Below, one piece after another: positions 28,152 through 50,931 of a DNA stretch of 54,205 nucleotides. The notes beneath the pieces were generated by a model, which was not told where the DNA came from, did no database searches, and saw only the letters and a program-made list of their open reading frames with translations. How positions within the stretch are numbered: position 1 is the first letter of the stretch; every line of letters starts with the position of its first letter. Source of the DNA: Candidatus Epulonipiscium sp. (GTDB lineage: Bacteria; Bacillota; Clostridia; Lachnospirales; Defluviitaleaceae); assembly GCA_012519205.1 (NCBI GenBank), contig JAAYQR010000003.1, positions 1 through 54,205 of the forward strand. The letters are read 5' to 3'. Both the position numbers and the translations under genes were made by a program.

Positions 28152-28188
28152 AAATACCTCCATGGAAACAATATATATGGAGGTGTTT
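28152..28188 (+). terminator. Hairpin sequestering the UPF0180 gene Shine-Dalgarno
   Basis: AAATACCTCCAT (28152-28163) pairs with ATGGAGGTGTTT (28177-28188): 12 bp with one T-G pair and a 13-base loop, followed by T's and the ATG at 28191. The 3' arm contains the whole ggaggtg Shine-Dalgarno. It can act as an intrinsic terminator of the par operon and as a translational lock. Confidence 0.8.
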
Positions 28189-28190
28189 TT

Positions 28191-28481
28191 ATGATTGTGG
28201 GAATTCAAAGGGGACTAGAAGGATATAAAAAAAGATTAGAAGAAAGAGGCTATAGGATCTATTATGAAGATGAATATAATTATCCCGTAGATGCTTATAT
28301 TTATATGAACCATCCCAATATAATGGATACAGATTATGACCATGGGCCGACTTTAACTGCATCCATAGAAAAAAGATCCAATCACAAGCATAGTGGAATA
28401 TTACTTATAAATGCACTAAATAAGGACATTGACCAAATAGAAGAGATTTTAAATAATAGGGTATATTCTCCCCTATTTTAA
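28191..28481 (+). CDS. UPF0180/YkuS-like small protein
   Basis: 96 residues. The N-terminus IGIQRGLEGYKKRLEERGY-like pattern (here VGIQRGLEGYKKRLEERGY) and the DQIEEILNNR end resemble the UPF0180/YkuS family, function unknown. The frame extends to 28143, but ggaggtg at 28179-28185 marks the ATG at 28191. That site is inside a strong hairpin. Followed by a bidirectional terminator before thiT. Confidence 0.65.
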   Translation: MIVGIQRGLEGYKKRLEERGYRIYYEDEYNYPVDAYIYMNHPNIMDTDYDHGPTLTASIEKRSNHKHSGILLINALNKDIDQIEEILNNRVYSPLF

Positions 28482-28487
28482 AAAAAG

Positions 28488-28509
28488 AGCAGCTAAATGG
28501 CTGCTTTTT
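28488..28509 (+). terminator. Convergent terminator, UPF0180 gene / thiT
   Basis: AGCAGC (28488-28493) / GCTGCT (28500-28505) with flanking A- and T-runs, so it can work in both directions. The last codons of thiT (EQKAAI) are encoded by it. Confidence 0.8.
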
Positions 28510-29161
28510 GCTCTTTTATATTAATGTTATTTTTTATATAACTAAGGGCACCCCTAAAGGAGGGAATCATAAATAAGGCAACGGTAAGGGCCAGCTCTAC
28601 CCCTATATAGGAAAGATTATAAAGAAGTGAATAAACAATGGCACTATATCCTTCCCAAGCATAAGAACCAAAGAAAATCCATCCAGATAAGAAAGAACAG
28701 ATAAATCTCCCTGATACTCCTACGCAATATCCATATATAAGTGAATACTTGCCCTTTCTAAAAAATCCAGAAAGCCCCAAAGCCCCAAAGGCCAGAGGAT
28801 AATCTAATAAAAGTTGAATTGGATGAACTACAGATGCTCCAAAAGCCAATTGTAATAGCCCATGGGTAAGTCCTGCTAAAATGCCTTCTAAAGGACCAAA
28901 CCAATAACCTACTAGTACTATGAACATCATGGAAAATGGAGTAACTGAACCCCCCTGGGGAAGTGAAAACATAGTAATAGTGGATAGGACCGTCGCTAGG
29001 GCTACGGCTATTCCAGAGTATGATAAGGATTTAGTAGAAAAGTTCTTATCCTTATACAGTTTGCTTACAAAAATTGTGATAGCAATAGCGATAACAAGCA
29101 TAATAGCCCCTTTACCCATAGGGGAATCAAAAAAACCTTGTAAAATTTCTTCTGAAAACAT
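28493..29161 (-). CDS. thiT: Thiamine ECF transporter S component ThiT
   Basis: 222-residue hydrophobic S component (about six helices) of an energy-coupling-factor transporter. The family pattern SLPQGGSVTPFSMMFIVLVGYWFGP and the later HPIQLLLDYPLAFGALGLSG are clear. It captures thiamine and needs the shared EcfAA'T module, which is not here. The frame runs to 29200 inside the riboswitch, but AGGAGG (29168-29173) places the ATG at 29161. Controlled by the TPP riboswitch upstream. Lagging-strand gene. Confidence 0.93.
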   Translation of the reverse strand: MFSEEILQGFFDSPMGKGAIMLVIAIAITIFVSKLYKDKNFSTKSLSYSGIAVALATVLSTITMFSLPQGGSVTPFSMMFIVLVGYWFGPLEGILAGLTHGLLQLAFGASVVHPIQLLLDYPLAFGALGLSGFFRKGKYSLIYGYCVGVSGRFICSFLSGWIFFGSYAWEGYSAIVYSLLYNLSYIGVELALTVALFMIPSFRGALSYIKNNINIKEQKAAI

Positions 29162-29288
29162 AAAAATCCTCCTTAATCTTGTCCGCAGGAGGTTTACCAT
29201 ATTACGCTTTCCTTCGCCAGCATTATCTGGATCAGGTACAAAGGGTTAGTGCAATGCACAATCTCAGCCAAAGGCTCCCCTAGCGGAC
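29162..29288 (-). promoter_or_regulatory. TPP riboswitch with translational expression platform
   Basis: The minus strand holds the thi-box aptamer (29205-29285): GGGGAGCC..GGCTGAGA, ACCC, CCTGATCcagATAATGC and GAAGGAAAGCG in the family order. Downstream, CCTCCT (29187-29192) can pair with the thiT Shine-Dalgarno AGGAGG (29168-29173). The adjacent GCGGAC (29181-29186) can instead pair with GTCCGC (29283-29288), which overlaps the aptamer P1 strand. This suggests TPP-induced translation shut-off. Confidence 0.95.
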
Positions 29289-29324
29289 TTATATTTAGTT
29301 AATAAAGAATGCATTCTTGTAATC

Positions 29325-29353
29325 AATATATATCAAATAATATAAAATGTCAA
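29325..29353 (-). promoter_or_regulatory. thiT promoter
   Basis: Minus strand -35 TTGACA (29348-29353), 17 bp, -10 TATATT (29325-29330). Predicted start ~30 bases before the aptamer. Confidence 0.85.
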
Positions 29354-29380
29354 ATAGGTTTGACTGGGGAGTATAAATTA

Positions 29381-29433
29381 AAAAAGTTTAAAACTTCATG
29401 TGTAGGATTATACATAAAGTCTTAAACCTTTTT
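29381..29433. terminator. Long imperfect hairpin before the secreted-protein gene
   Basis: Bases 29381-29404 pair with 29409-29433 (about 22 bp, two mismatches, one bulge, loop GGAT). Arms begin with AAAAA and end with TTTTT, so it could terminate transcription both ways and insulate thiT from the accessory gene, or attenuate the latter. Confidence 0.65.
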
Positions 29434-29452
29434 ATGAACTAGGAAGGTTCAT
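29434..29452. promoter_or_regulatory. Operator-like dyad ATGAAC-N7-GTTCAT
   Basis: ATGAACTAGgaagGTTCAT arms (29434-29439 and 29447-29452) share ATGAACTAG with the operator array before the TetR gene at 31022. Spacing is 7 rather than 3-5 bp, so identity as the same operator is tentative. It is followed by a second nested dyad (GGTTC/GAACC, 29446-29471). Confidence 0.4.
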
Positions 29453-29576
29453 TTTGTTTGCAAGGAACCAAATTTCTCTAGTTGATAGTTGCAATATATA
29501 ACAATGTATGTAAGAATATAAACAATATTGATGAAAGTGAATTTATTAGGAAACCAATATGGAGAGGAGAATGTAA

Positions 29577-30938
29577 ATGATTAAACTTAAAAAGTTTGTA
29601 GCAATCGGACTAGCACTAATGTGCTCAATGTCCACAGTGACAGCTAAAGGAATGGACTTAAATCTAGTTATAAATGGTAGCACTGTTGTACCAACTGTAA
29701 AACCTTATGTAGATAAGGGCAGAACTATGGTACCACTTCGAGTAATCAGTGAGAGTCTAGGTGCCGAAGTATCCTACAATCAAAACACTAAAAGGATTAC
29801 TATCACAAAAGGTTCTAAAAAGATTGAAATGACACTAGGTGAGTACCAAGTAAAAATAGATGGTATAACTGAAGTCATGGACACAAAACCTGTAGTGAAA
29901 AATAATACAACAATGGTGCCATTACGTTTCATAAGCGAAGCCCTTAACTGTGATGTCGTTTATGATTCCAAGAAGTATACCGTAATTGTAACTGGTGACA
30001 TTTCGTCATCTGGAGGTGGTTCTGGTGGGAGCATATACATACCCGATGCACCAGTCATCACAGACGCTTGGGGTAGAAAAAGTAGAACTACTAATCTACC
30101 TAAGAATGCGAAACATTTTCCTTATATTGCCGAGGGAGTTCCGAATTGGTGTTACGAGCAACAACCTTGGAATGATAATTTTTTTGGTACTTGGGTTGTG
30201 GATAACGGAGTGAAAAATGCAAAACAAGTTTCGGCATTTCCACTAACCGCTATGGGTAACGAAACCAGTGACATACGTAGAGCCATGTTCACTTGTTACC
30301 CACTGTTGGATGAATTTATTGATGCTCAACTAAACTTCGACTACCGAACAGTTGATGAAGAAAAATTTGTAGACGTAATGCGTCGTTCCATAAACAAGTA
30401 CAGCATGAAATTAAGAACAGAACAAGCTGTTGAAGACCTTGCACGTGGTTATATCGAGTATGCAAAAACTTATAAAGTATCATCCAAGGTTGAATACCAG
30501 ATATTACCAGAAACTGCATGGATTTCTGCTGACGCAGATTTATCCTCATTTAAGGTTAGTGTGTGGATGAAACTAACCCCATTAACCGTCCCCTCTGAAT
30601 CAAGTAATAAGGTGTGGGATGACTTCGGTTCAATGTCAATTCAGAAAGATGGTACTCCACTCGAAACCTCAGCTTTAGAAGCAGGTAAAACATACGAAGG
30701 AATAGTAACCTACACATTCATGTATAATGATGACATCAAGGGCTACCAACTTCATTATAATGGAACCGAAGCCCTTTGTCAGATAAATCCTAAAAAAGAT
30801 TTATTAAATGGTGTAGCTCCTTCAATGAAAGACCCTAATCGCCAAGAAAAGTTCTGTTATGGTTGGATGAAAGAGGGCTTGCTTTTATCCCGCTATGAAC
30901 AAAAAGATTTGTGGAAGTACGAGGACTTTGACAAATAA
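29577..30938 (+). CDS. Secreted protein with copper-amine-oxidase N-terminal domain
   Basis: 453 residues. Signal peptide (1-24, hydrophobic core IGLALMCSMSTVTA). Residues ~28-140 carry two halves of the copper amine oxidase N-terminal-like domain (GRTMVPLRVISESLGAEV; TTMVPLRFISEALNCDV), which in clostridia is a surface stalk or wall-linked module, not an enzyme. A Ser/Gly linker (~144-152) leads to a ~300-residue domain I cannot assign, with four cysteines. Codon choice looks less AT-biased than in neighbouring genes, hinting at acquisition. ATG behind gagaggag. A terminator follows, then a TetR gene with operators. Confidence 0.7.
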   Translation: MIKLKKFVAIGLALMCSMSTVTAKGMDLNLVINGSTVVPTVKPYVDKGRTMVPLRVISESLGAEVSYNQNTKRITITKGSKKIEMTLGEYQVKIDGITEVMDTKPVVKNNTTMVPLRFISEALNCDVVYDSKKYTVIVTGDISSSGGGSGGSIYIPDAPVITDAWGRKSRTTNLPKNAKHFPYIAEGVPNWCYEQQPWNDNFFGTWVVDNGVKNAKQVSAFPLTAMGNETSDIRRAMFTCYPLLDEFIDAQLNFDYRTVDEEKFVDVMRRSINKYSMKLRTEQAVEDLARGYIEYAKTYKVSSKVEYQILPETAWISADADLSSFKVSVWMKLTPLTVPSESSNKVWDDFGSMSIQKDGTPLETSALEAGKTYEGIVTYTFMYNDDIKGYQLHYNGTEALCQINPKKDLLNGVAPSMKDPNRQEKFCYGWMKEGLLLSRYEQKDLWKYEDFDK

Positions 30939-30964
30939 TACATTGGAGGTGTTATATAGTTTAT

Positions 30965-31009
30965 GTGGGTCTTGTGCAAAAATTAACATTGCATGAGGCT
31001 CACTTTTTT
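30965..31009 (+). terminator. Terminator after secreted-protein gene
   Basis: GTGGGTCTTGTGCA (30965-30978) / TGCATGAGGCTCAC (30990-31003), 14 pairs including four G-T, loop of 11, then TTTTTT. Its 3' arm overlaps the -35 of the tetR promoter. Confidence 0.85.
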
Positions 31010-31017
31010 ATTATACT
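30989..31017 (+). promoter_or_regulatory. Promoter of TetR gene 31119
   Basis: -35 TTGCAT (30989-30994), 17 bp, -10 TATACT (31012-31017). The predicted start falls within the operator array beginning at 31022. Confidence 0.65.
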
Positions 31018-31021
31018 AGAT

Positions 31022-31097
31022 ATGAACTAGATTCATATGAACTAGATTCACGAGATACTAAATTAATACGAACCGCATTCACATGAACCCCATTCAT
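31022..31097. repeat. 15-bp operator array, ATGAA-N5-TTCAT
   Basis: Two adjacent copies of ATGAACTAGATTCA(T/C) at 31022-31036 and 31037-31051, a degenerate 16-bp gap, then ACGAACCGCATTCAC (31068-31082) and ATGAACCCCATTCAT (31083-31097). Each unit is a dyad (ATGAA/TTCAT). The array sits just after a -10 and before a TetR gene, the place for a repressor operator. Confidence 0.75.
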
Positions 31098-31118
31098 GAA
31101 ATAATAATGTATTAGTAG

Positions 31119-31655
31119 GTGATTAAAATTAGTAAAAAAGTAAATATAACAAAAGAATTTATAATTGAAACTGTAGGTAAGAGATATAAGTTAAAATATG
31201 AAGATATAAACATGAAAAAGATTGCAGATGAATGTGGGATATCTGTAGGACTATTGTATAAGTATTATCCTGCCAAGGATGATTTAATAAATGATATTTT
31301 TATGTCGGAATGGAATGAAATAAGAAAAGCACTAATATCAGAACAATCGAAATATGATGATGTAACTACCAAGCTTTGCCTATTGCAGTATAAAGTTCAG
31401 CATATACATAATAAATTTAGGAATGTTATTTATAATCTTTATGTAAGGGATAATTTTAATAAGTACCCTGATTTTTTCAATAGCATAGAAGAGATGATAG
31501 AATCTATTTTACAAGAGGGAAAAGCGTCTGCTAACATAAAACCTAAAATAGACATAAAAAAAATGGGTAAAATATTATCGTATAACATAATAATCTCCTT
31601 AAATGAAGAATTAGATTATTTTATATATTTTTTTAGGACTATACTTTTTTCATAG
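31119..31655 (+). CDS. TetR family regulator
   Basis: 178 residues. N-terminal helix-turn-helix NMKKIADECGISVGLLYKYYPAKDDLIND (first half ~residues 31-43). The C-terminal ligand domain is divergent. Start is uncertain: GTG at 31119 has only a weak Shine-Dalgarno. Likely binds the 15-bp array directly upstream and may also control the secreted-protein gene at 29577 (inference from a shared ATGAACTAG motif). Confidence 0.75.
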   Translation: MIKISKKVNITKEFIIETVGKRYKLKYEDINMKKIADECGISVGLLYKYYPAKDDLINDIFMSEWNEIRKALISEQSKYDDVTTKLCLLQYKVQHIHNKFRNVIYNLYVRDNFNKYPDFFNSIEEMIESILQEGKASANIKPKIDIKKMGKILSYNIIISLNEELDYFIYFFRTILFS

Positions 31656-31670
31656 AAGATAAAAAATGTA

Positions 31671-31679
31671 TGGTATAAT
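31671..31679 (+). promoter_or_regulatory. Promoter of HAD phosphatase gene (extended -10)
   Basis: TGgTATAAT at 31671-31679, ~55 bp before the ATG. The -35 region is weak. Confidence 0.5.
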
Positions 31680-31734
31680 ATAATTTATAAGGACAACATT
31701 ATCTACAATTATCTAAAATGAAAGGAAAAATAAA

Positions 31735-32541: not shown

Positions 32542-32557
32542 TGAATGTTAAACAAGT

Positions 32558-32599
32558 ACTCCTTAATAAAATATATAAAGAATGTATTAAGGAGTTTTG
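32558..32599 (+). terminator. Hairpin sequestering Shine-Dalgarno of the 66-residue gene
   Basis: ACTCCTTAATA (32558-32568) / TATTAAGGAGT (32585-32595), 11 perfect pairs, 16-base loop, then TTT. The AAGGAG Shine-Dalgarno for the ATG at 32602 lies in the 3' arm. It doubles as a terminator for the HAD gene. Confidence 0.8.
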
Positions 32600-32601
32600 C
32601 T

Positions 32602-32802
32602 ATGGAAGAATATAGGGAGATTTTAAAGAAGTTTCTTTATAACTTATTAGAGCAACTTTTGTTACTGATAATTATTATATTTATATTTGTCGGTATATAT
32701 ATACCCATTAGAAATACCGCAAAACAGATTAATGGTAACAGGGAAATAATCGATCAAATGAGAAAAAATAATTATGAAGTGGAAATAAAAGATAAAAAGT
32801 AG
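32602..32802 (+). CDS. Small single-pass membrane protein
   Basis: 66 residues: a charged N-terminus, one strong membrane helix rich in Leu/Ile (~residues 16-36), and a basic/acidic C-terminal tail. No family recognised. The frame extends to 32545, but AAGGAG at 32589-32594 marks the ATG at 32602. Expression is likely limited by the hairpin covering that site. Confidence 0.55.
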   Translation: MEEYREILKKFLYNLLEQLLLLIIIIFIFVGIYIPIRNTAKQINGNREIIDQMRKNNYEVEIKDKK

Positions 32803-32863
32803 GTACATCCTACTTTTTATCTTTTATTTTCCGTTTATAAAAAAAGGACATATATCATGTTCT

Positions 32864-33940: not shown

Positions 33941-34011
33941 ATGAACACCCCTAACATATAAGATACTATTATTTTATATAAAAGTAGTCTGAAAGTAAAG
34001 CAAAATCAATA

Positions 34012-34048: not shown

Positions 34049-34150
34049 TGAGGGGGGATTTAGCGATGTACCTTATATTGGGTACACTTACATAATAACC
34101 AATTTGATTAACTTATATACATGGTTATTAATATTTTTTAAAAAAATTAT

Positions 34151-34423: not shown

Positions 34424-34445
34424 AAGATCACCCCAAAATTAGTTT

Positions 34446-34548: not shown

Positions 34549-34566
34549 GTTCAAGTATAATAATTT

Positions 34567-34656
34567 GGAGAAGTACTCAAGAGGCTGAAGAGGTGCCCCT
34601 GCTAAGGGTATAGGTCGGGCTAAACCGGCGCGAGGGTTCAAATCCCTCCTTCTCCG
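34567..34656 (+). tRNA. tRNA-Ser(GCU), CCA not encoded
   Basis: Same acceptor, D, anticodon (ctGCTaa) and T arms as the copy at 223-313, but the variable arm reads gggctaaaccgg instead of gagcaatcgg and is two bases longer. The bases after the discriminator G are TCCA, so CCA must be added by enzyme. Own promoter and terminator. Confidence 0.95.
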
Positions 34657-34660
34657 TCCA

Positions 34661-34694
34661 AATAACTCTGTTTAATTTCAGAGTTATTTTTTTA
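34661..34694 (+). terminator. Terminator after tRNA-Ser
   Basis: AATAACTCTG (34661-34670) / CAGAGTTATT (34679-34688), then a run of T. Confidence 0.92.
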
Positions 34695-34735
34695 TAGTCT
34701 TGATTTAGAATTTTTAGACTTTCACGTAGAAATAG

Positions 34736-34764
34736 TTGAAAAATGGAAAAATAATTGTTATACT
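34736..34764 (+). promoter_or_regulatory. Promoter of MarR gene
   Basis: -35 TTGAAA (34736-34741), 17 bp, -10 TATACT (34759-34764), ~50 bp before the ATG. Confidence 0.75.
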
Positions 34765-34817
34765 AGAATTTAAAAATAAACCTTTTTAGATAAAAATATA
34801 TATGTGGAGGGAAGGCT

Positions 34818-35255
34818 ATGAATGACATGATGATGAATTATCTAGCTGAGATCATAAGTAATATTTCAGATGCTCAAAGTGCAATATTGAAAGAAAAACA
34901 GCTACAGTATAAAATCACACCTAATGAAATGAGAATCATTGAAATCATTGGAACAAACTGCAAGCCTAAGATGATGAAAGATATTGCAGAACTTATGTCT
35001 ATGACTAAAGGTGGAATGACATTTTTGATTGACAAGTTAGAAGAAAAAAAGATGGCAAAAAGAAAACAGAATGATTCTGATAGAAGAGTTTTATACATTG
35101 AATTAACAGATATGGGGAAAGAGGTTTTTGAGGATTATAACAGGAATAAATATGCTATTTTATACCAGTTAGTTGAAAATATGAATTCTTCCACAAAAAA
35201 GTTAGTTGCGGAGGAATTTAACAAGACATTAAAAATGATTGAAGAATCTGTTTAA
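34818..35255 (+). CDS. MarR family transcriptional regulator
   Basis: 145 residues with the MarR winged helix: recognition region MKDIAELMSMTKGGMTFLID (~52-71) and wing KRKQNDSDRRVLYIELTDMGKE. Ligand and targets are unknown. A 59-residue gene follows 80 bp downstream behind a hairpin. ATG with a ggaggga Shine-Dalgarno. Confidence 0.88.
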   Translation: MNDMMMNYLAEIISNISDAQSAILKEKQLQYKITPNEMRIIEIIGTNCKPKMMKDIAELMSMTKGGMTFLIDKLEEKKMAKRKQNDSDRRVLYIELTDMGKEVFEDYNRNKYAILYQLVENMNSSTKKLVAEEFNKTLKMIEESV

Positions 35256-35286
35256 AGTCCGTACATATATTATTTTTAAATTATGT

Positions 35287-35337
35287 ATAGAACCATCTAA
35301 AAGTATCCAAACTAAGTTTGAATGGAGGTGGTTCTAT
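35287..35337 (+). promoter_or_regulatory. Hairpin covering the start of the 59-residue gene
   Basis: ATAGAACCATC (35287-35297) pairs with GGTGGTTCTAT (35327-35337): 11 pairs, one T-G, 29-base loop. The 3' arm spans part of the Shine-Dalgarno and the AT of the ATG at 35336. No T-run follows, so this looks like translational control rather than termination. Confidence 0.65.
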
Positions 35338-35515
35338 GAATAATAGAGAGTCTACAGCGAACCAAGAATACAAAGGTTCCGATTTAGAAATTGCAGATCA
35401 AGTACAAGCAGAAGTTACTGCAAATAAATCCCCAGATAAAACAAATAAGTCTAAAACAGAGATGGAGTTTGTAAGTAATTTTAATCCTGATGATTTTGAA
35501 GGAGATATACGCTAA
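35336..35515 (+). CDS. Small acidic hydrophilic protein
   Basis: 59 residues, rich in Asn, Lys, Asp and Glu, no membrane helix, no family recognised. It ends NFNPDDFEGDIR. The frame opens at a TTG (35318), but ggagg (35324-35328) favours the ATG at 35336. A good terminator follows, which supports a real gene. Confidence 0.5.
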   Translation: MNNRESTANQEYKGSDLEIADQVQAEVTANKSPDKTNKSKTEMEFVSNFNPDDFEGDIR

Positions 35516-35520
35516 TGCCT

Positions 35521-35547
35521 AAAGTAAAGTCTAAGACTTTACTTTTT
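35521..35547 (+). terminator. Terminator after small protein gene
   Basis: AAAGTAAAGTC (35521-35531), loop TAA, GACTTTACTTT (35535-35545), then T's. Confidence 0.88.
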
Positions 35548-35663
35548 ATTTTGTTTTTCTATATTTATTTGACAGTTTATATATTAGAATATACAATCTA
35601 AATTGGACTAAAGGGCAAAAAAAGTTACAAAATAATAATTAAAATTAGGAGAGGATGAAAACA

Positions 35664-36341
35664 ATGAGGACGCTTGTGGATAGTTTTTCATTAAGGGAAA
35701 TTAATTTTGCAAAAACAAGATTAAAGATTTTACAAGTAGTAAAAGAAAGGGTCCTTGAAAAGGATTTCGAAGAGGTTACAGTAGATGAAATATGTAGGTA
35801 TGCAGAAATATCTAGGGGGACTTTTTTTAATTATTTTCCTACTAAGAATGATATCTTTAAATATTATATAAGGATATGGAAAATAAAAATGGGTCTAGAA
35901 ATGGCTAAGCTTAATTTTAAAGAAAAGACAGCAGAAGGAAAACTAATTGTTTTATATAGTAAACTAATAGGAGAAAACAAGGAATTTCCAGGGTTTTTTA
36001 GGAATTACTTAAAACATATCATAGATGCAAAAGAAATCGATGATGAAATAAAGCTGACCCAAGCAGAATTTGCATATGAATTTCCTGAAGAGGAACTAGA
36101 TATCGATGAGATAGAAGCACTTAATAGCCTTTCTTTAGATAAGATTCTAAAAAATATTTTAAATGAAGGAATTATTAAGGGGGAGTTTAAAAAAGACTTG
36201 GATGTAGAAAATTCTTCTATGTTTCTTATCTCAATTTTCTTTAGTCCTATTATAATATACAGATTTATGAGTGAATCCTATGATTTAAGAGAGTATTATG
36301 AATACACCCTAGACCATTTGTTTCAAACTATAAAAGCATAA
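35664..36341 (+). CDS. TetR family regulator
   Basis: 225 residues. Helix-turn-helix VDEICRYAEISRGTFFNYFPTKNDIF in the first third, and a longer C-terminal domain of unknown ligand. An ATG nine bases earlier (35655) is in frame but only three bases from the aggag, so 35664 is preferred. No adjacent efflux pump is seen. Terminator follows. Confidence 0.85.
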   Translation: MRTLVDSFSLREINFAKTRLKILQVVKERVLEKDFEEVTVDEICRYAEISRGTFFNYFPTKNDIFKYYIRIWKIKMGLEMAKLNFKEKTAEGKLIVLYSKLIGENKEFPGFFRNYLKHIIDAKEIDDEIKLTQAEFAYEFPEEELDIDEIEALNSLSLDKILKNILNEGIIKGEFKKDLDVENSSMFLISIFFSPIIIYRFMSESYDLREYYEYTLDHLFQTIKA

Positions 36342-36349
36342 TACTTATA

Positions 36350-36393
36350 AAAACAATATGCGAAGTTAACATAAATTGGCATATTGTTTTTTT
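36350..36393 (+). terminator. Terminator after TetR gene
   Basis: AAAACAATATGC (36350-36361) / GCATATTGTTTT (36379-36390) followed by T's. Confidence 0.88.
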
Positions 36394-36401
36394 CTTTGTT
36401 A

Positions 36402-36430
36402 TTGACATAAAATAAAATATAAAATATAAT
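36402..36430 (+). promoter_or_regulatory. tRNA-Arg(UCG) promoter
   Basis: -35 TTGACA (36402-36407), 17 bp of A/T, -10 TATAAT (36425-36430). Both hexamers perfect. The leader to the tRNA is ~95 bases, which is long for a single tRNA. Confidence 0.88.
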
Positions 36431-36531
36431 TTACAGTGGGTTACAAGCAGTCCATAGTTTTAGTAAATATAAGAAAATATATAATCTAAGGGATTAGATA
36501 ATCAAGGATTATAGAATCAATTATGAAATAT

Positions 36532-36605
36532 GCACGCATAGCTCAGCTGGATAGAGCATCTGACTTCGGATCAGAGGGTCGAGGGTTCGAATCCTTCTGC
36601 GTGCG
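36532..36605 (+). tRNA. tRNA-Arg(UCG)
   Basis: 74-base cloverleaf: acceptor gcacgca/tgcgtgc, anticodon stem tctga/tcaga with loop ctTCGga, T-loop gttcgaatc, discriminator G, CCA not encoded. Followed by a terminator and the DUF3881 gene. Confidence 0.95.
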
Positions 36606-36607
36606 TT

Positions 36608-36636
36608 AAACCCCTATAGTTTCATAGGGGTTTTTT
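36608..36636 (+). terminator. Terminator after tRNA-Arg(UCG)
   Basis: AAACCCCTAT (36608-36617) / ATAGGGGTTT (36624-36633), then T's, just 20 bp before the next ATG. Translation of the downstream gene therefore needs readthrough or its own start within this short gap. Confidence 0.9.
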
Positions 36637-36655
36637 ATATAGGAAGGAGGTAATC

Positions 36656-37528
36656 ATGGGAACCTATATAAGTGCTGTAGGATTTAGCAGTATTAACAAA
36701 AAGAGGCAATGGGATATTTTAATTGATGAAGTTTTAAAAAACTCGGATAAACAACTTGTAACAAATCATGATGAAGAACATATTTTTATAGAGTACTATA
36801 AAGAATATGGAAAAGGCATGGGCGTTGTCCTAAGAGGTCTTTTAGATAATGATCAAGATATTGATTTGGAAACCTGCGATCCATATTTTGAGGCCAGGTA
36901 TACAGTAGATATAGCAGAGATAGAAATTGAAGAGGAAGAAGACGATTATTTTTATTTTGCTATTTATGAGGATGAGCAAAGTGGTTCAGAAATCGTTTTT
37001 CAGCTTCAAAATATAATAGAATACCTAGAAATTAAAGGGGATAAAGAGGTATTTATTGATGGAATTAAGATTGTGGGGTTGGCATCTAAGGGAACAGTCA
37101 TCCTTCCTGTAGAAAAAACGGACTCCGATGTAGAATATGAAAATGAACAAAATGAATGGAAAAAAGAGCTCTTTAAAAGAGCAAGGCAAGGGGATGAAGA
37201 GGCTAGAGAAATATTAGATATGGAAGCGGAAGAAGCAGCAGATATTATCGAAGAAAGGCTCCAAAATGAAGACTTCTTATCCGTGATAGAGGGATATTTT
37301 ATTCCAATTGATTATTTAGATGCAACGTATTCTCTTTTAGGAACAATTCAAGAAGTAGAAATAATAGAAAATAACCAAACAAAAGAAAAGGTTTATTGGA
37401 TGCTGGTTGAGACCATAGGTATGAAAATTGAAGTAGCAATTAATGCCAAAGAATTAGTTGGTAATCCTATGGTAGGTATGAGATTTATGGGAATGTGCTG
37501 GATGCAGGGGACAGTTATTTTTTCTTAA
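36656..37528 (+). CDS. DUF3881-like protein
   Basis: 290 residues, acidic, no membrane helix. The N-terminus YISAVGFSSINKKRQWDILIDEVL and overall size resemble DUF3881, an uncharacterised clostridial family. The C-terminal part has a beta-rich module ending in MVGMRFMGMCWMQGTVIF. Strong aggaaggagg Shine-Dalgarno. It sits between two arginine tRNA genes, with a terminator just upstream, so it may depend on readthrough from the tRNA promoter. Confidence 0.7.
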   Translation: MGTYISAVGFSSINKKRQWDILIDEVLKNSDKQLVTNHDEEHIFIEYYKEYGKGMGVVLRGLLDNDQDIDLETCDPYFEARYTVDIAEIEIEEEEDDYFYFAIYEDEQSGSEIVFQLQNIIEYLEIKGDKEVFIDGIKIVGLASKGTVILPVEKTDSDVEYENEQNEWKKELFKRARQGDEEAREILDMEAEEAADIIEERLQNEDFLSVIEGYFIPIDYLDATYSLLGTIQEVEIIENNQTKEKVYWMLVETIGMKIEVAINAKELVGNPMVGMRFMGMCWMQGTVIFS

Positions 37529-37552
37529 ATTTATAATTTATGAAATCAGTAC

Positions 37553-37581
37553 TTGACTTAGGAAACAAGTATCTGTAAAAT
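37553..37581 (+). promoter_or_regulatory. tRNA-Arg(CCU) promoter
   Basis: -35 TTGACT (37553-37558), 17 bp, -10 TAAAAT (37576-37581). Confidence 0.75.
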
Positions 37582-37587
37582 AATTAA

Positions 37588-37605
37588 GGACGCCTAAAGG
37601 CGTCC
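37588..37605. terminator. GC-rich inverted repeat near the tRNA-Arg(CCU) start site
   Basis: GGACGCCT / AGGCGTCC (37588-37605), a near-perfect palindrome without T-run, right where the tRNA transcript would begin. It may be a terminator for the preceding gene, an operator or a leader stem. I cannot tell which. Confidence 0.5.
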
Positions 37606-37624
37606 CGCAATAATTTCATAAAAT

Positions 37625-37698
37625 GTTTCCGTAGCTCAGCAGGATAGAGCGACTGCCTCCTAAGCAGTAGGCCGTGGGTTCGAATCCCGCCGGGAACA
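37625..37698 (+). tRNA. tRNA-Arg(CCU)
   Basis: 74-base cloverleaf: acceptor gtttccg/cgggaac (one T-G), anticodon stem actgc/gcagt with loop ctCCTaa, T-loop gttcgaatc, discriminator A, CCA not encoded. It decodes the rare AGG codon. Confidence 0.95.
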
Positions 37699-37702
37699 GC
37701 AA

Positions 37703-37735
37703 AAAGCCTTACAAATTAACTTGTAAGGCTTTTTT
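37703..37735 (+). terminator. Terminator after tRNA-Arg(CCU)
   Basis: AAGCCTTACAA (37704-37714) / TTGTAAGGCTT (37721-37731) then T's. Confidence 0.92.
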
Positions 37736-37760
37736 ATGAGACAAAATGGAGGAATTCATT

Positions 37761-37853
37761 ATGGAAAAGACTAAGTTAGTAGAAAGTACTCAAGATTCCA
37801 AAGGGGAGTTTTCATTCTTATGGAATATAGAATCCTTTAATTTTAAGGTGTAA
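37761..37853 (+). CDS. Candidate 30-residue small protein
   Basis: ATG with a good Shine-Dalgarno (atggagg, 8 bases away), 30 codons, TAA at 37851. It starts MEKTKLVESTQ and ends in an aromatic-rich SFLWNIESFNFKV. It stands alone between a tRNA terminator and the CAP-domain gene, with no promoter I can point to. Too short to judge by composition. Confidence 0.35.
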   Translation: MEKTKLVESTQDSKGEFSFLWNIESFNFKV

Positions 37854-37928
37854 AAGATATAGCTGTATGATACAATATATTAGTATTATTAAAAAACAAA
37901 TACAGGTGTTAATATAAGGGGTGATTGT

Positions 37929-39110
37929 ATGAAAAAGTTAAAATATTTTATTTTAGGTTTTATGGTATCTACACTTTTACTTACTAATCCAGCAGTTAAG
38001 GCAGCGGATTTCTTACAAAGCATTAAAGTAGTTTTTAGTAATATGCCCATATATATAGAAGGGCAAAAGGCTCAAATTAAGGAAAAACCCATGATATATG
38101 AAGGAACCACTTATTTACCCATGCGAAGTATTGCTAAAGCTCTAGGTAAGGAAGTACGCTATGAGGCAGATAGCCGCTCTATCTATATATATACCAAGGG
38201 TAATGAACCCGTTATGGATAATAAGAAAGATGATAATGTGGAGGATAAGATAGATTCAAAGGAATTTAACCTATACAATATATCCATAGGAGACGATAAG
38301 GAACATGTGATAAATAAGCTAGGCGATCCCGATAGACAGGACGCCTCAGAATATGGATTTACATGGTTTATATACAATAAAGATTATAAAAATTATATTC
38401 AAGTAGGTATAAAAGATAGCAAGGTAGTCGGGCTTTATACAAATTCAGCCAATTGGCAATCTAAAAAAGGTATTAAATTTGGTTCAACTTATTTAGAAGT
38501 ACAAAATGCCTACAAAACCCCTCTTACCTATATCCAAAAGGGAAATACGAAGTATTACTTTAGCAATAGTATAAAGGAATCGAATACCTTCTTAATTGAT
38601 GATGCCTATACAACTATTTTTTATGATATGCACAAAAATCAAACCGTAACTTCAGTCCTTATTATTGAAAAAGACACAGAACTAACCCTAAACGGCTTTT
38701 ACGGAGAGGGTAGTAAAGAACTTATAAAAGCATATGAAAAACAAATATTTGATTTATCAAATGCAGTAAGAGTAAGAGAAGATTTAAAGCCATATAGTTG
38801 GGATGATTTAGCATCTAAGTCCAGTAGGCTTCATAGCGAGGATATGGCAAAGGGAGACTTTTTTGCCCACACAAATTTAAGGGGGGAAAGCCCCTTTGTA
38901 AGAATGAACAATCAGGGGATTAGATATAATATGGCAGCAGAAAACATTGCAGCAGGACAAAACAATGCCATATATGCCCATGAAGGATGGATGAATTCCA
39001 AAGGGCATAGGACAAATATCCTAGGAAAATGTGAAAGACTGGGGGTAGGGGTATACTTTGGTGGGGCATATAGCACGTATTTTACCCAAAACTTTTATAC
39101 TCCAAGATAA
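37929..39110 (+). CDS. Secreted CAP-domain (YkwD-like) protein
   Basis: 393 residues. Signal peptide (1-25, ...PAVKAAD). Residues ~35-95 are a copper-amine-oxidase-N-type half repeat (YEGTTYLPMRSIAKALGKEV), followed by an acidic linker. The middle is a CAP-associated N domain (~115-265) and the C-terminal ~125 residues a CAP/SCP domain with HSEDMAKGDFFAHTN, AENIAAG and HEGWMNSKGHRTNIL. Such proteins are surface or spore-associated in Firmicutes. Activity is unproven. Confidence 0.88.
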   Translation: MKKLKYFILGFMVSTLLLTNPAVKAADFLQSIKVVFSNMPIYIEGQKAQIKEKPMIYEGTTYLPMRSIAKALGKEVRYEADSRSIYIYTKGNEPVMDNKKDDNVEDKIDSKEFNLYNISIGDDKEHVINKLGDPDRQDASEYGFTWFIYNKDYKNYIQVGIKDSKVVGLYTNSANWQSKKGIKFGSTYLEVQNAYKTPLTYIQKGNTKYYFSNSIKESNTFLIDDAYTTIFYDMHKNQTVTSVLIIEKDTELTLNGFYGEGSKELIKAYEKQIFDLSNAVRVREDLKPYSWDDLASKSSRLHSEDMAKGDFFAHTNLRGESPFVRMNNQGIRYNMAAENIAAGQNNAIYAHEGWMNSKGHRTNILGKCERLGVGVYFGGAYSTYFTQNFYTPR

Positions 39111-39154
39111 AAATAAAAGGTTTCTATTAATTATTCTAAAAAAGGGAGATCACC

Positions 39155-39637
39155 ATGGAAAATTCCCATGAATATTTCATGAAAAAGGCCTTAGAATTAG
39201 CTAAGAAAGCAATGGATATAGATGAAGTTCCCATAGGAACTATAATAGTTTATGATAATCAAATTATTGGTAAGGGATATAATAGAAGAAACACCGAAAA
39301 AAGCCCCTTAGCTCATGGGGAAATCGAAGCCATAAAAGAAGCGGCAAGTTTTTTAGGGGATTGGAGATTAGAAGGATGTAACATGTATGTTACCCTTGAG
39401 CCCTGCCCTATGTGTGCCGGAGCCATAGTACAATCAAGGATGGATAAAGTCATATTTGGAACAAGAAATCCCAAGGCAGGTTGTGGTGGTTCTGTAATCA
39501 ATATTTTACAAGAGCCAAAGTTCAATCACCAGGTAGAGATAATAGAAGGCATATGCAAGGAAGAATGCAGTAATATTTTAAAGCTATTTTTTGCTAACAT
39601 GAGGAATAAAAGGAATGAGGTGGAGGTTGACATATAA
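39155..39637 (+). CDS. tadA: tRNA adenosine(34) deaminase
   Basis: 160 residues. Converts A34 to inosine in tRNA-Arg(ACG). Zinc ligands are H54 (in AHGEIEA, with catalytic E56), C84 and C87 in PCPMCAGA. Conserved GCGGS near the C-terminus. ATG behind aagggag. It precedes ffs and dnaX, as in Bacillus. Confidence 0.95.
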   Translation: MENSHEYFMKKALELAKKAMDIDEVPIGTIIVYDNQIIGKGYNRRNTEKSPLAHGEIEAIKEAASFLGDWRLEGCNMYVTLEPCPMCAGAIVQSRMDKVIFGTRNPKAGCGGSVINILQEPKFNHQVEIIEGICKEECSNILKLFFANMRNKRNEVEVDI

Positions 39638-39688
39638 CCTAAAACCTTGTATACTAAAGAATGCAACACTTAATAAGTCATAAGATTT

Positions 39689-39952
39689 CCGTGCTAGTCG
39701 GGGAGTTAGCGGTGCCCTGTACCTGCAATCCGCTATAGCAGGGACGATGCCTATCTGAGGCCTTATCTCCTTAGGGCCTGCCCTTTGCAAGTGGTGATGA
39801 AAATCGGGTCTTGCGCAACAGAAGTTTGTGAACCGTGCCAGGTCCGGAAGGAAGCAGTACTAAGCAAATATCTCTGTGTGCCGCAAGGGTGCCTAGTTTG
39901 AGCTAACTGCAAAGGTAACGCCTGGGGGGAATTGTCGAGGGTAGGTGCACGG
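39689..39952 (+). ncRNA. ffs: Signal recognition particle RNA, long Bacillus type
   Basis: About 264 bases. The universal domain IV is exact (gtgccaggtccggaaggaagcag at 39836 on, with the GGAAG asymmetric loop). The 5' CCGTGC and 3' GCACGG ends pair, and the 5' part forms the Alu domain (gcctatctgagg region). Long-form SRP RNA with an Alu domain is typical of Bacilli and Clostridia. It lies between tadA and dnaX. Confidence 0.95.
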
Positions 39953-46314: not shown

Positions 46315-46323
46315 AGGTGAAAT

Positions 46324-46491: not shown

Positions 46492-46500
46492 GTGTTTTAA

Positions 46501-47940: not shown

Positions 47941-47951
47941 GGGGATAATCT

Positions 47952-48416
47952 ATGATGGAAAATAAGACCGCACAGGTTGTCAATGCAAGCCCGGGTCAAC
48001 TTATAGTGATTACTTATGAGCTTATTATTGGAACCTTAGAAGATGCAAAAAACCAAATTCCAGTGGAAGATGAAAAAAAGTTTAAAAGGGCTCTAGATAA
48101 AGCTCAAAGGCTTCTCAGAGAACTTATAGATGCCTTAGATTTATCCTATGATATTTCCCATGATTTAATGGCAATGTATTTATACATTAATAAGACAATA
48201 ATCAATGCCTATGTGACTAGGAAAAAAGAGCCTATAGAAGAAACAATAAAGATTTTAAAAACCCTTCTTAAAGGTTGGGAAGAAGTAGCAGCCGTAGAAG
48301 AAAAAAATCCCCCTGTGGTTGAAAATGCTCAGCAAATATATGCAGGATTAACCTATGGAAAAGGAAGTTTAAACGAATCTGTAGTGGAAGAAAAAAATAG
48401 AGGATTTAAGGCATAA
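47952..48416 (+). CDS. fliS: Flagellar export chaperone FliS
   Basis: 154 residues. FliS pattern: N-terminal NKTAQVVNASPGQLIVITYELII, helix bundle with LLRELIDALDLSYDISHDLMAMYLYINKTIINA, and TLLKGWEEV. It binds the flagellin C-terminus before export, consistent with its place directly after fliC. The tail of ~30 residues beyond the usual length is variable. Confidence 0.9.
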   Translation: MMENKTAQVVNASPGQLIVITYELIIGTLEDAKNQIPVEDEKKFKRALDKAQRLLRELIDALDLSYDISHDLMAMYLYINKTIINAYVTRKKEPIEETIKILKTLLKGWEEVAAVEEKNPPVVENAQQIYAGLTYGKGSLNESVVEEKNRGFKA

Positions 48417-48429
48417 TAAACCAAAGTAT

Positions 48430-48466
48430 AAAAAGAGTTTATGTTAATGAGCATAAACTCTTTTTT
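48430..48466 (+). terminator. Terminator of flagellin operon
   Basis: AAAAGAGTTTATG (48431-48443) / CATAAACTCTTTT (48452-48464) then T's. Confidence 0.92.
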
Positions 48467-48559
48467 GGGCTTTAATTTATTTTGGATAAGCCATATGAAT
48501 AAAATACCAACCATTGGACTATACTTATATTAGCAAAGTTATCCAAGGAGGTATTATTT

Positions 48560-48844
48560 TTGAACCCTATCGTAGCCACCGGGAAAAAGGGATTTTTCCC
48601 CTTTAAATTAAAAATAAAAAAGGCATATCCACCTACAGAAGAAGAGGAAATCAAAAATGCGCTTCGAAAAATTAAAAATGAAATCGATTTGGCTTATCAT
48701 AGATTTGAAAATGCTATGGACAAAGAATTAGTAGATAGCTGTATATACGAAATGAAAGCTCTTCAAAAAAAGTACGAATTCTACTTAAAGAAAGCTAAAG
48801 AAAAGGATATATCTTTATTAAAAGAATGGGAGCAGACCTCATAA
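48560..48844 (+). CDS. yaaL: DUF2508 family protein YaaL
   Basis: 94 residues matching DUF2508 (EEEEIKNALRKIKNEIDLAYHRFENA, and a C-terminal CIYEMKALQKKYEFYLKKAKE). Unknown role. In Bacillus it sits between recR and bofA, which supports the call. TTG start behind aaggagg. Upstream, TTGGATAA (48481-48488) can pair with TTATCCAA (48539-48546) around a 50-base loop. Confidence 0.88.
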   Translation: MNPIVATGKKGFFPFKLKIKKAYPPTEEEEIKNALRKIKNEIDLAYHRFENAMDKELVDSCIYEMKALQKKYEFYLKKAKEKDISLLKEWEQTS

Positions 48845-48868
48845 TATCTATTATTCAGGGGGGATACT

Positions 48869-49129
48869 ATGGAAGGCAATGGTATTTTGATTTTTTTAAT
48901 AATAGCTGGAGGTATTATTTTAACCTTTATGATTTTCCCAAAGCCTTTAAAACTTATTTTAAGGGCTATTCTACAGGGATTAGGAGGCTTAGTAGGGTTT
49001 TTTGTGTTAAATTTTATTTTATCTCCCATAGGGTGGTCAGTGGGAATTAATTGGACCACTATGCTTATAGTCGGGATATTGGGCATTCCGGGATTCATTT
49101 TTCTATATCTTTTAAATATCTTTTTATAA
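48869..49129 (+). CDS. bofA: Pro-sigma-K processing inhibitor BofA family protein
   Basis: 86 residues with about three membrane helices. The C-terminal part (GWSVGINWTTMLIVGILGIPGFIFLYLL) matches BofA, which in Bacillus restrains SpoIVFB during sporulation. Follows yaaL by 24 bp. Its presence suggests a spore former, although BofA-like proteins also occur elsewhere. Confidence 0.88.
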   Translation: MEGNGILIFLIIAGGIILTFMIFPKPLKLILRAILQGLGGLVGFFVLNFILSPIGWSVGINWTTMLIVGILGIPGFIFLYLLNIFL

Positions 49130-49302
49130 TACCGATTTATATTTTTTGCTAACCATTGTTAAACATTTAACCATGGTAAAAACAAGAAGTATTCACATAC
49201 ATATAGGAATTTTAACTTAGCTATTACACCATACATATGTAAGGCAAGTTTTTACAATCACTCGAACTAATACATCCATTTTTATATTAATGGGTTCACT
49301 TA

Positions 49303-49331
49303 TTGACATGAGATTTTTGCAATGATAGACT
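49303..49331 (+). promoter_or_regulatory. glgA promoter
   Basis: -35 TTGACA (49303-49308), 17 bp, -10 TAGACT (49326-49331). An upstream dyad, ACCAT-tGTTAA / TTAAC-cATGGT (49153-49181), lies in the same 265-bp gap after bofA. No gene was seen in the gap. Confidence 0.65.
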
Positions 49332-49394
49332 TAGATAGCATATAATTTCAAAGGTATACATTAGTGTGTAAAAGTAAAAATGGGGGTTGTTTTA

Positions 49395-50831
49395 ATGGCT
49401 AATAATAAAAAAATATTATTTGTTTCTTCGGAGGCTTCACCCTTTGCAAAAACAGGGGGGCTTGGGGATGTTGCAGGGGCTCTTCCATATGCTTTAAAAA
49501 AGTTAGGAGTAGATGTTAGGATAGTTATACCAAGGTACAAATGTATTCCTAAAGAATACACTAAGGACTCAAAATTAAAAGAAGAATATACAGTTTATCT
49601 AGATTGGAGAAAGCAATCTGCCTCTATTTACGAATATGATAATGGATTGCCGGTGTATTTTGTGGAAAATGATTATTACTTTGGAAGAGAAGGCTTATAT
49701 GGATATCATGACGATCATGAAAGATTTGCCTTTTTTTGTAAGGCGGTTTTAGAAATGCTTCCTAAAATAGACTTTATACCTGATATTATCCATTGTAATG
49801 ACTGGCAAACAGGTCCTATTTGCATCCTTCTCAACGAAATCTATAAAAGAAATGATACATACAAATCCATATCCTCCTTATTTACTATACATAATATACA
49901 GTATCAAGGCATATTTGGGAGGGAAACCCTAAGTATGCTAGGGCTCTCTGATTGGTATTTTAATTCCGAAAGGATGGAATACTACGGGAATATAAGCTAT
50001 ATGAAGGCAGGGTTAATATATGCTGATGCCATAAGTACGGTTAGCAACACCTATGCAAAAGAAATAAAAACCTATGAATATGGCTATGGATTAGAAGGCA
50101 TACTTCAAAAAAGAAGTAGCAATCTTTATGGCATTATAAATGGTATTGATTATAAACTATATAATCCCGAAACCGATAAAAATATTTATTTTCCATATTC
50201 TAAAGAAAATATTAAATTAAAAGAAAATAATAAAAGAGCCCTTCAAAAGGAACTTAATCTCCCCCAGAGGGATGTACCCGTTATAGGTATTGTATCTAGA
50301 TTAGTGGATCAAAAGGGATTTAATTTAATAGCGGAACAAATTAATGAACTTATGAAAGAGGATATCCAACTTATAGTTTTAGGAACGGGACAAGAGGGAT
50401 ATGAAAACCTATTTATCTATATGGAGAAAACTTTCCCTGATAAGGTAAGAGCTAAAATCTTATTTAATCTAAATTTAGCCCAAAAAGTTTATGCAGGCAG
50501 TGATTTGTTTTTAATGCCGTCTCTATTTGAACCCTGTGGTCTTGGACAACTAATGAGTCTAAGATATGGTACTATTCCTATTGTTAGAAACACAGGGGGA
50601 TTGGCAGATACCATACAGGCATTCGATGAAGAAAGAGGAGTCGGCAATGGCTTTGTATTCAACGATTATAACTCCTGGGCAATGATGCAGGAAATAAAAA
50701 GGGCCATTCATATCTATTATCAAAAAATAAGCTGGGAAAAACTAATACAAAATGCTATGGATTCCGATTATTCCTGGGAGGATTCTGCTCAAAAATATAT
50801 AAATTTATATGAAACCATAGGGCATTTATAA
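49395..50831 (+). CDS. glgA: Glycogen synthase GlgA
   Basis: 478-residue GT5 family enzyme that adds glucose from ADP-glucose to glycogen. N-terminal KTGGL motif (19-23) in SPFAKTGGLGDV. Catalytic C domain with GIVSRLVDQKGF and FEPCGLGQLMSLRYGTIP. The frame extends to 49380, but ggggg before the ATG at 49395 and the conserved start favour this one. glgC/D/B are not nearby, so it is isolated from its pathway. Confidence 0.95.
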   Translation: MANNKKILFVSSEASPFAKTGGLGDVAGALPYALKKLGVDVRIVIPRYKCIPKEYTKDSKLKEEYTVYLDWRKQSASIYEYDNGLPVYFVENDYYFGREGLYGYHDDHERFAFFCKAVLEMLPKIDFIPDIIHCNDWQTGPICILLNEIYKRNDTYKSISSLFTIHNIQYQGIFGRETLSMLGLSDWYFNSERMEYYGNISYMKAGLIYADAISTVSNTYAKEIKTYEYGYGLEGILQKRSSNLYGIINGIDYKLYNPETDKNIYFPYSKENIKLKENNKRALQKELNLPQRDVPVIGIVSRLVDQKGFNLIAEQINELMKEDIQLIVLGTGQEGYENLFIYMEKTFPDKVRAKILFNLNLAQKVYAGSDLFLMPSLFEPCGLGQLMSLRYGTIPIVRNTGGLADTIQAFDEERGVGNGFVFNDYNSWAMMQEIKRAIHIYYQKISWEKLIQNAMDSDYSWEDSAQKYINLYETIGHL

Positions 50832-50889
50832 GATTCAATCAAAGCTTTATCTGATTTACTCAAACCATAAAAAGAATGAAAATCTATCT

Positions 50890-50931
50890 TCCCTCATATA
50901 TTTGTACAAACAGATATATGGGGGACTTTTT
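50890..50931 (+). terminator. Hairpin sequestering Shine-Dalgarno of YkvI-like gene
   Basis: TCCCTCATATAT (50890-50901) pairs with ATATATGGGGGA (50914-50925): 12 pairs, one T-G, 12-base loop, then CTTTTT and ATG at 50932. The GGGGGA Shine-Dalgarno is inside the 3' arm. It may also terminate glgA. Confidence 0.8.

Follow-up and report, generated by a model that had tools for sequence, protein, structure and literature searches.

Conserved hairpins that pair the Shine-Dalgarno (SD) sequence, with sporulation-type promoter motifs fixed inside them, stand before several genes of a Candidatus Epulonipiscium sp. genome. We consider it probable (roughly 0.7) that these conserved elements act as readthrough locks: the SD would be hidden in RNA reading through from the gene upstream, and a sporulation promoter inside the hairpin would give RNA free of the lock. 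The window, i.e., the whole stretch of DNA analysed, is 54,205 nucleotides long. The initial annotation had named four genes in it with hairpins at their start regions, each 50-100 bp behind a same-strand gene; sequence and folding recover all four, and the gaps to the preceding genes are 55, 60, 100 and 80 bp. The features discussed below are as follows.

28145-28149, + strand: GCATA, -35-like box of a sigma-F-type promoter of the UPF0180 gene (motif in 10/14 homologues)
28152-28188, + strand: SD-hiding hairpin of the UPF0180 gene, with 5' arm 28152-28164 and SD-bearing 3' arm 28176-28188 (fold, conservation, paired changes)
28164-28173, + strand: GGAAACAATA, -10-like box of the UPF0180 gene, at the end of the 5' arm and in the loop (same motif)
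28186-28190, + strand: T-run forming the SD-to-ATG spacer of the UPF0180 gene, a possible U-tract (sequence, homologues)
28191-28481, + strand: UPF0180 (YkuS-like) gene, 96 amino acids (PF03698, E-value 1.3e-7; homologues)
32558-32595, + strand: hairpin before the 66 amino acid gene, not conserved (sequence, fold)
32602-32802, + strand: gene of a 66 amino acid membrane-like protein (no Pfam match)
35284-35289, + strand: TGTATA, -35-like box of a sigma-G-like promoter of the 59 amino acid gene (identical place in 5/5 homologues)
35286-35338, + strand: long-loop hairpin hiding the SD end and start codon of the 59 amino acid gene (sequence, folds, homologues)
35308-35314, + strand: CAAACTA, -10-like box in the loop of that hairpin (motif comparison)
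35336-35515, + strand: 59 amino acid gene (no Pfam match)
50874-50880, + strand: GAATGAA, -35-like box of a sigma-E-like promoter of the YkvI-like gene (6/7 homologues, relaxed pattern)
50890-50925, + strand: SD-hiding hairpin of the YkvI-like gene, 16 pairs, also terminator-like by scan (fold, homologues)
50895-50902, + strand: CATATATT, -10-like box in the 5' arm of that hairpin (motif comparison)
50927-50931, + strand: T-run forming the SD-to-ATG spacer of the YkvI-like gene (sequence)
50932-52008, + strand: YkvI-like membrane protein gene, 358 amino acids (named by the initial annotation; no Pfam or NCBIfam match)

Such a lock would combine three signals within approximately 50 bp: a promoter of a sporulation-type sigma factor, a stem-loop and a ribosome-binding site. 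The 5' arm would either sit in the spacer of the promoter or overlap its -10 box; the loop would contain that box or the start region, with the SD following in the 3' arm. Readthrough RNA from the same-strand upstream gene would contain both arms, fold and go untranslated. The lock would form only in this RNA because RNA from the internal promoters would start past the 5' arm; a transcript begun there by a sporulation sigma factor would have a more open SD. Elements whose SD and ATG are separated by a T-run may in addition terminate the readthrough RNA. A stage-specific gene would thereby stay silent although it lies close behind a growth gene. Spore formers keep stage-specific genes that would be wasteful or harmful during growth, some of them directly behind growth genes. 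If the lock operates as proposed, a cheap RNA device within the promoter would explain how leakage stays low, RNA-seq abundance would be a misleading guide to the protein made from such genes, and the element would serve as a compact part for insulation.

The sequence and fold predictions agree with this reading at three of the four window genes. The SD is paired in a stable hairpin in upstream-derived RNA, by prediction and by conservation. Freeing an SD is predicted to cost 7-16 kcal/mol with both arms and 1-6 kcal/mol if the RNA begins in the loop. The hairpins of the UPF0180, 59 amino acid and YkvI-like genes (starts 28191, 35336 and 50932) are conserved in relatives, and each has a promoter motif inside or over its 5' strand, whose -10 box falls in that arm or in the loop; the 66 amino acid gene (start 32602) has no clear motif of this kind and a mostly unconserved hairpin. 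The suggestion of the initial annotation that readthrough RNA is folded and untranslated and loop-begun RNA translatable, as for T4 lysozyme, thus fits the first three of these genes.

The 13-bp stem of the UPF0180 element (-15.6 kcal/mol) has the SD in the 3' arm, followed by TTTTT and the ATG at 28191. The hairpin is present in all 14 homologues read, each matched by at most 2 of 200 shuffles, and with near-identical rows left out there are paired changes on both arms at six stem positions. In MAFFT alignments of the leaders of UPF0180 and C_GCAxxG genes, the more distant 5' arms did not line up, and pairing was therefore scored hairpin by hairpin with the SD as anchor. Such scoring favours the structure; the main weight is on the shuffle tests made for each locus. 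A pair of sigma-F-type boxes at constant spacing, with a relaxed -35 and with the -10 in the 5' arm and loop, occurs in 10 of the 14 homologues (shuffled rate approximately 0.4%, 13 of the 14 rows used). A B. subtilis core sporulation table places ykuS under F (PMC3416734). The transcript start that we infer lies at the very edge of the SD, and a start at least one base later would cut into it. The stop codon of the upstream gene is 45-64 bp before the UPF0180 start, and the hairpin is kept despite a different upstream gene: this is DUF4446 in the window and, judged by eye, in close relatives, and other proteins, also judged by eye, in loci L055-L058. A class-wide search found UPF0180 in 82 of 291 genomes, with SD hairpins at or below -8 kcal/mol at 7 of the 30 loci read.

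The YkvI-like gene has a 16-bp stem (-21.2 kcal/mol) followed by TTTTT and the ATG at 50932, and the highest SD-freeing cost of 619 sampled genes. The hairpin occurs at 9 of 26 loci read (30 returned), including all 8 of its own family. A sigma-E-like motif is found in 6 of 7 rows (7 of the 9 rows used; pattern written after the sequences were seen). In the predicted own RNA the SD is still mostly paired (unpaired 0.10); the freeing cost drops from 15.6 to 2.8 kcal/mol. The hairpin of the 59 amino acid gene (-13.9 kcal/mol) sequesters the start codon together with some of the SD and lacks a T-run, as had been described. It is found in 5/5 homologues, once weakly, and the sigma-G-like motif is kept in all five (again a pattern written after the sequences were seen); these homologues are weak matches (E-values 1.4e-4 to 1.7e-6), three with stops within the matched stretch. 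The hairpin of the 66 amino acid gene has an 11-bp stem (-9.4 kcal/mol with outer pairs) and a T-run of just four, and appears at 2 of 7 relatives' loci, one of them weak.

Are such hairpins more frequent than expected? The fold count proposed by the initial annotation was made on 619 genes of the same genome (52 scored window genes and 567 outside the window) against SD-preserving shuffles. SD hairpins at or below -12 kcal/mol occur at 3 of the 52 window genes (0.4 in shuffles) and at 6 of the 567 others (1.6 in shuffles); at or below -4 kcal/mol there is no excess over shuffles (95/619 vs 88.9). Weak SD hairpins are thus ordinary, only strong ones exceed chance, and the idea of a genome-wide device narrows to a small minority of genes at most. 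Outside the window, a T-run of at least four directly precedes the start in 5 of 20 genes with a hairpin at or below -8 kcal/mol vs 27 of 547 others (Fisher p-value = 0.0035). The sample holds further strong SD-hairpin matches (L013, L003, L042, L001, L044), and some strong SD hairpins sit within upstream coding sequence (L011, L010, L002). A strict sigma-F/G motif scan of the sample yielded 7 of 619 genes (4.9 shuffled) and no further members; the two matches with hairpins are the window's own, and none of the five outside the window has one. The exact pattern CCTCC..GGAGG..ATG has 12 matches in the whole genome vs 5 for the reversed pattern. A double CCTCC..GGAGG match at C11:117667-117721, considered as divergent starts, was rejected, as gene calls show a convergent gap.

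Comparable anatomy is found at sigG of the same genome (hairpin in 10 of 16 loci read, 20 returned), a C_GCAxxG gene (8 of 14 loci read, 20 returned), a 53 amino acid gene (5/5 loci), a 136 amino acid gene (7/13 loci) and a PdaB-like gene (8/11: 10 of 12 returned loci plus the own copy, whose hairpin is equalled by 34 of 200 shuffles). The genes with known relatives in the set point to sporulation. With sigG, a 358 amino acid transporter-like protein and a PdaB-like deacetylase among them, the label "small and accessory genes" given to the class does not hold. For sigG the calculated relief of SD-freeing cost is small (7.2 to 5.7 kcal/mol), and its promoter motif was compared over 8 of 10 rows with a pattern written after the sequences were seen; the costs of sigG and PdaB are near the 90th percentile of all genes. 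Among the selected starts, 50 of 54 have hairpins at or below -8 kcal/mol (the exceptions being L185 and, with the start called elsewhere, L068, L069 and L146), which is no independent rate because the starts were mostly preselected for a hairpin; the 146 other starts in the relatives' loci serve as the control, and 2 of them reach -8 kcal/mol. Distant homologues are frequently without the hairpin.

Could the hairpins be mere intrinsic terminators of upstream genes in a compact genome, with SD hiding as a by-product? T-runs do follow the UPF0180, YkvI and most C_GCAxxG stems, and runs of at least four precede 32 of the 54 selected starts vs 8 of the 146 others. A terminator scan (loop limit 8) flags one of the four window stems, 50890-50925, the other loops exceeding the limit. 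However, the UPF0180 hairpin stays with its gene while the upstream gene changes, the sigG, 53 amino acid and 59 amino acid elements have no T-run, and a terminator needs no promoter inside its stem; we regard this explanation as unlikely.

It is quite improbable that the hairpin belongs to the gene's own mRNA leader and regulates in place, as a thermometer or a protein or ligand switch. A small hairpin at the ribosome-binding site in own-promoter RNA is known for Bacilli sigG (PMC5942855), but here the promoter-like boxes lie within the hairpin, and the nearby upstream stop codon leaves little room before UPF0180 for a separate leader promoter, although one inside the upstream gene could serve. 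Neither the hairpins of the window nor the elements in L012, L015, L034 and L046 match an Rfam 15 family at gathering score. Inverted repeats could also be DNA operators for a protein rather than RNA structures: conservation of the YkvI loop extends past the -10 box, and B. subtilis ykvI is at a SpoIIID ChIP site (PMC517825). Yet arm sequences vary between genes and species with pairing kept, and of the 13 UPF0180 departures facing the SD (84 cells), 11 are U-G wobbles, which preserve pairing in RNA and spoil a DNA palindrome; we regard an operator as very improbable.

The spacer between the -35 and -10 boxes is usually unconstrained. It is tempting to generalize the readthrough lock to perhaps a few dozen genes in this clostridial family under several sporulation sigma factors, at somewhat less than even odds. 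A fused promoter, SD hairpin and terminator of approximately 50 bp would silence readthrough from growth genes at two levels, terminating the RNA and hiding its SD, and would give the sporulation mRNA a near-minimal leader, with the -35/-10 spacer recruited as an anti-SD.

The mechanism itself is already known from T4 lysozyme and B. subtilis sigG. Among the open-licence papers found, the idea is described for sigG of B. subtilis and for several genes of T4 (PMC5942855, PMC3014915); a search of open-licence papers did not find the design for ykuS, ykvI or sporulation genes generally, which does not prove its absence. In B. subtilis sigG (spoIIIG), a hairpin in readthrough RNA from the upstream operon hides the ribosome-binding site, and transcripts made from the sporulation promoter of sigG itself are unable to form this hairpin (Masuda 1988, cited in PMC5942855). 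The sigG of the present genome has an anatomy comparable to this; unlike the B. subtilis case, the elements described here also serve unrelated genes, carry motifs of several sigma classes, lie behind housekeeping genes and often have a T-run after the stem. In the T4 genes e, soc, 49 and I-TevI, the SD or AUG is hidden in long early RNA, and for gene e late promoters yield RNA lacking that structure's 5' strand (PMC3014915); in contrast to these, the present elements are on a bacterial chromosome, have sporulation-type promoters and may act as terminators. The UPF0180, YkvI and most C_GCAxxG elements resemble intrinsic terminators in having a stem and then a T-run, but here the following gene has its SD in the 3' arm and its spacer in the U-tract, and the loops are often long. 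What looks new is that the design recurs before genes of the sporulation type, across several sigma classes and in many cases with a T-run between SD and ATG.

All four inverted repeats that the initial annotation had reported at gene starts are present, by both sequence and folding:

28152-28188, + strand: hairpin of the UPF0180 (YkuS-like) gene; strong stem (-15.6 kcal/mol), Shine-Dalgarno (SD) in the 3' arm, then five T and the ATG
32558-32595, + strand: hairpin of the 66-amino acid gene; weaker stem, four T
35286-35338, + strand: hairpin of the 59-amino acid gene; long-loop stem, start codon buried
50890-50925, + strand: hairpin of the YkvI-like gene; strong stem (-21.2 kcal/mol), SD in the 3' arm, then five T and the ATG
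Besides the hairpins, the plus strand has tRNA genes for Ser, Arg and again Arg, together with a large bacterial SRP RNA (39689-39952), within 34566-39952.

Same-strand genes end 55 bp before the UPF0180 gene (matching DUF4446 and adjoining a ParB gene), 60 bp before the 66-amino acid gene (HAD hydrolase), 80 bp before the 59-amino acid gene (MarR-type regulator) and 100 bp before the YkvI-like gene (glycogen synthase GlgA). RNA entering from the upstream gene would contain both arms, so that the SD is paired and translation blocked, while RNA begun in the loop would lack the 5' arm and its SD would be easier to free. With a T-run as spacer, the stem may also terminate incoming RNA; a terminator scan of the window stems flagged only that of YkvI.

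We calculated the cost of freeing the SD for nine genes of this genome, seven chosen for a strong own copy outside coding sequence, the 66-amino acid gene because the initial annotation named it, and sigG from the Bacillus subtilis precedent. The cost is 7-16 kcal/mol in RNA with both arms and 1-6 kcal/mol when the RNA begins in the loop; the background in 619 genes has a median of 3.5 (90th percentile 6.9, 95th 9.1). The weak cases are sigG (7.2 to 5.7) and a PdaB-like deacetylase gene (7.1 to 2.7). From readthrough to own RNA, the predicted probability of an unpaired SD (median 0.44 in sampled genes) rises from 0.00 to 0.69 for UPF0180, from 0.19 to about 0.47 for the 59-amino acid gene and only from 0.01 to 0.10 for YkvI. 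The predicted UPF0180 RNA start falls at the SD edge.

Eight of the 14 UPF0180 homologues that we read belong to the genome's own family (where the search includes members titled MAG Candidatus Epulonipiscium sp.); the rest come from four further families of the same order and from two Anaeromonas genomes. Every one carries the SD hairpin (-9.2 to -20.5 kcal/mol), equalled in no case by more than 2 of 200 shuffles, as well as a run of four or more T. At stem positions -3, -2, -1, 6, 7 and 8, counted from the SD core, both arms vary between species. Ten leaders contain a sigma-F-type promoter, [GAT][CTA]ATA-N13-17-GGnnAnAnT[AG], in which the -35 is relaxed and the -10 box sits in the loop or at the end of the 5' arm; 9 of 13 rows matched in a test where the shuffled rate was about 0.4%. 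This genome's other UPF0180 copy also has an SD hairpin (-8.6, 0/100 shuffles). Class-wide, only 7 of 30 UPF0180 loci read reach -8. B. subtilis ykuS, a UPF0180 gene, is entered under F in a core sporulation table of PMC3416734, and B. subtilis is among the matches of the UPF0180 family search. Before the UPF0180 gene of a genome from another family of the class (locus L123, genome G151) lies an SD hairpin of -12.1 (2/100 shuffles); TGCATT precedes the CATACTA of its loop by 18 nt, and the two together resemble a sigma-G promoter. In the window, a second, 8-bp hairpin (28121-28139) covers the DUF4446 stop codon directly before the UPF0180 element; by eye, it was not seen in the relatives' UPF0180 leaders inspected.

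The YkvI hairpin was found in 9 of 26 loci, comprising 8/8 of the own family and one from another, and is mostly missing in distant homologues; the conserved hairpins reach -9.7 to -23.2 kcal/mol (at most 3/200 shuffles). Six of seven homologues share AAT-N16-19-CATATATT, with a -10 of mother-cell type. Conservation of the loop near TTGTACAAACA (50899-50914 and loci L062-L071) extends past the -10 box, and this stretch might contain a SpoIIID-type site. A SpoIIID ChIP site at B. subtilis ykvI is listed in PMC517825. The 59-amino acid gene retains its hairpin in 5/5 loci, one weak (-6.6, 11/200 shuffles), and a sigma-G-like TGnATA-N17-18-CAAA[CA]TA at constant position in all five. As the patterns for this gene, YkvI and sigG were written after the sequences were viewed, their shuffle rates are unfair tests; the putative promoters are instead suggested by fixed position across homologues, among which close relatives are not independent. 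For C. difficile, PMC3789822 describes sporulation consensus elements that closely resemble the B. subtilis ones and have ATA (E) or AC (K) at -35. The 66-amino acid hairpin occurs in only 2/7 loci, one weak (-5.6, 8/200 shuffles), and its element is therefore no conserved lock. The proposed readthrough lock is well supported, though not proven, for three of the four genes.

Similar anatomy elsewhere in the genome shows that "small and accessory genes" was the wrong class. At sigG, the SD and a sigma-F-type promoter both lie under a hairpin in 10/16 loci, the own copy (adjoining a gene that resembles sigE, judged by place) among them. The PdaB-like gene (best NCBIfam match TIGR02764, slightly below cut-off) has one in 8/11 loci, its own copy equalled by 34/200 shuffles. 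Further hairpins occur at a 136-amino acid gene (7/13 loci), a 53-amino acid gene (5/5, with three adjacent paired changes) and a C_GCAxxG-family gene (8/14). The loop of the last contains CATATAAT in the own copy and four of five family members, and CAATAAT in locus L161; by eye, a sigma-K-like AC lies 16 nt upstream in loci L160, L163 and L164 and is absent there from the own copy. Eight of the nine genes retain the hairpin in most near relatives, the exception being the 66-amino acid gene. Starts of other genes in the relatives' loci reach -8 in 2 of 146 cases.

Could such hairpins arise by chance? Our sample comprised the window plus 36 further stretches of this genome (699 kb, 33% of 2.13 Mb; 648 starts called, 619 kept by score). 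For each start, the best hairpin whose 3' arm includes the SD was compared with those from 20 dinucleotide shuffles of the sequence before the SD, which itself was left fixed. No excess appears at -4 kcal/mol (95 vs 88.9), whereas at -12 we find 9 against 2.0 (window, 3/52 vs 0.4; elsewhere, 6/567 vs 1.6). The strong class exceeds chance but is small. Outside the window, a T-run of at least four precedes 5 of 20 starts with hairpins of -8 or stronger versus 27 of 547 others (p = 0.0035). A strict sigma-F/G motif scan of the sample gave no further member, which counts against a general reading of the lock; "genome-wide", as initially suggested, is too broad. Other SD hairpins in the window include one of -8.9 at 11066-11401 (+ strand; rnpA-like by eye), where a small gene ends 91 bp upstream, and a moderate one (-7.1, with TTTTT) at the minus-strand gene 28493-29161, likely explained as the expression platform of its TPP riboswitch (29192-29291).

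The working principle proposed here is a known one. In T4 genes e, soc, 49 and I-TevI, the SD or AUG is described as hidden in long RNAs, and for gene e, transcripts from late promoters that lie shortly before it lack the 5' portion of this structure (PMC3014915). For B. subtilis sigG, a hairpin of 20 or more bp, unable to form in PsigG RNA, is proposed to block spoIIGA-sigE readthrough RNA (PMC5942855). Unlike these systems, as far as the two accounts describe them, the elements of this genome recur at sporulation-type genes that are unrelated to one another and follow growth genes, with several sigma-like motif classes and a frequent T-run, and their apparent novelty lies in this repeated use.
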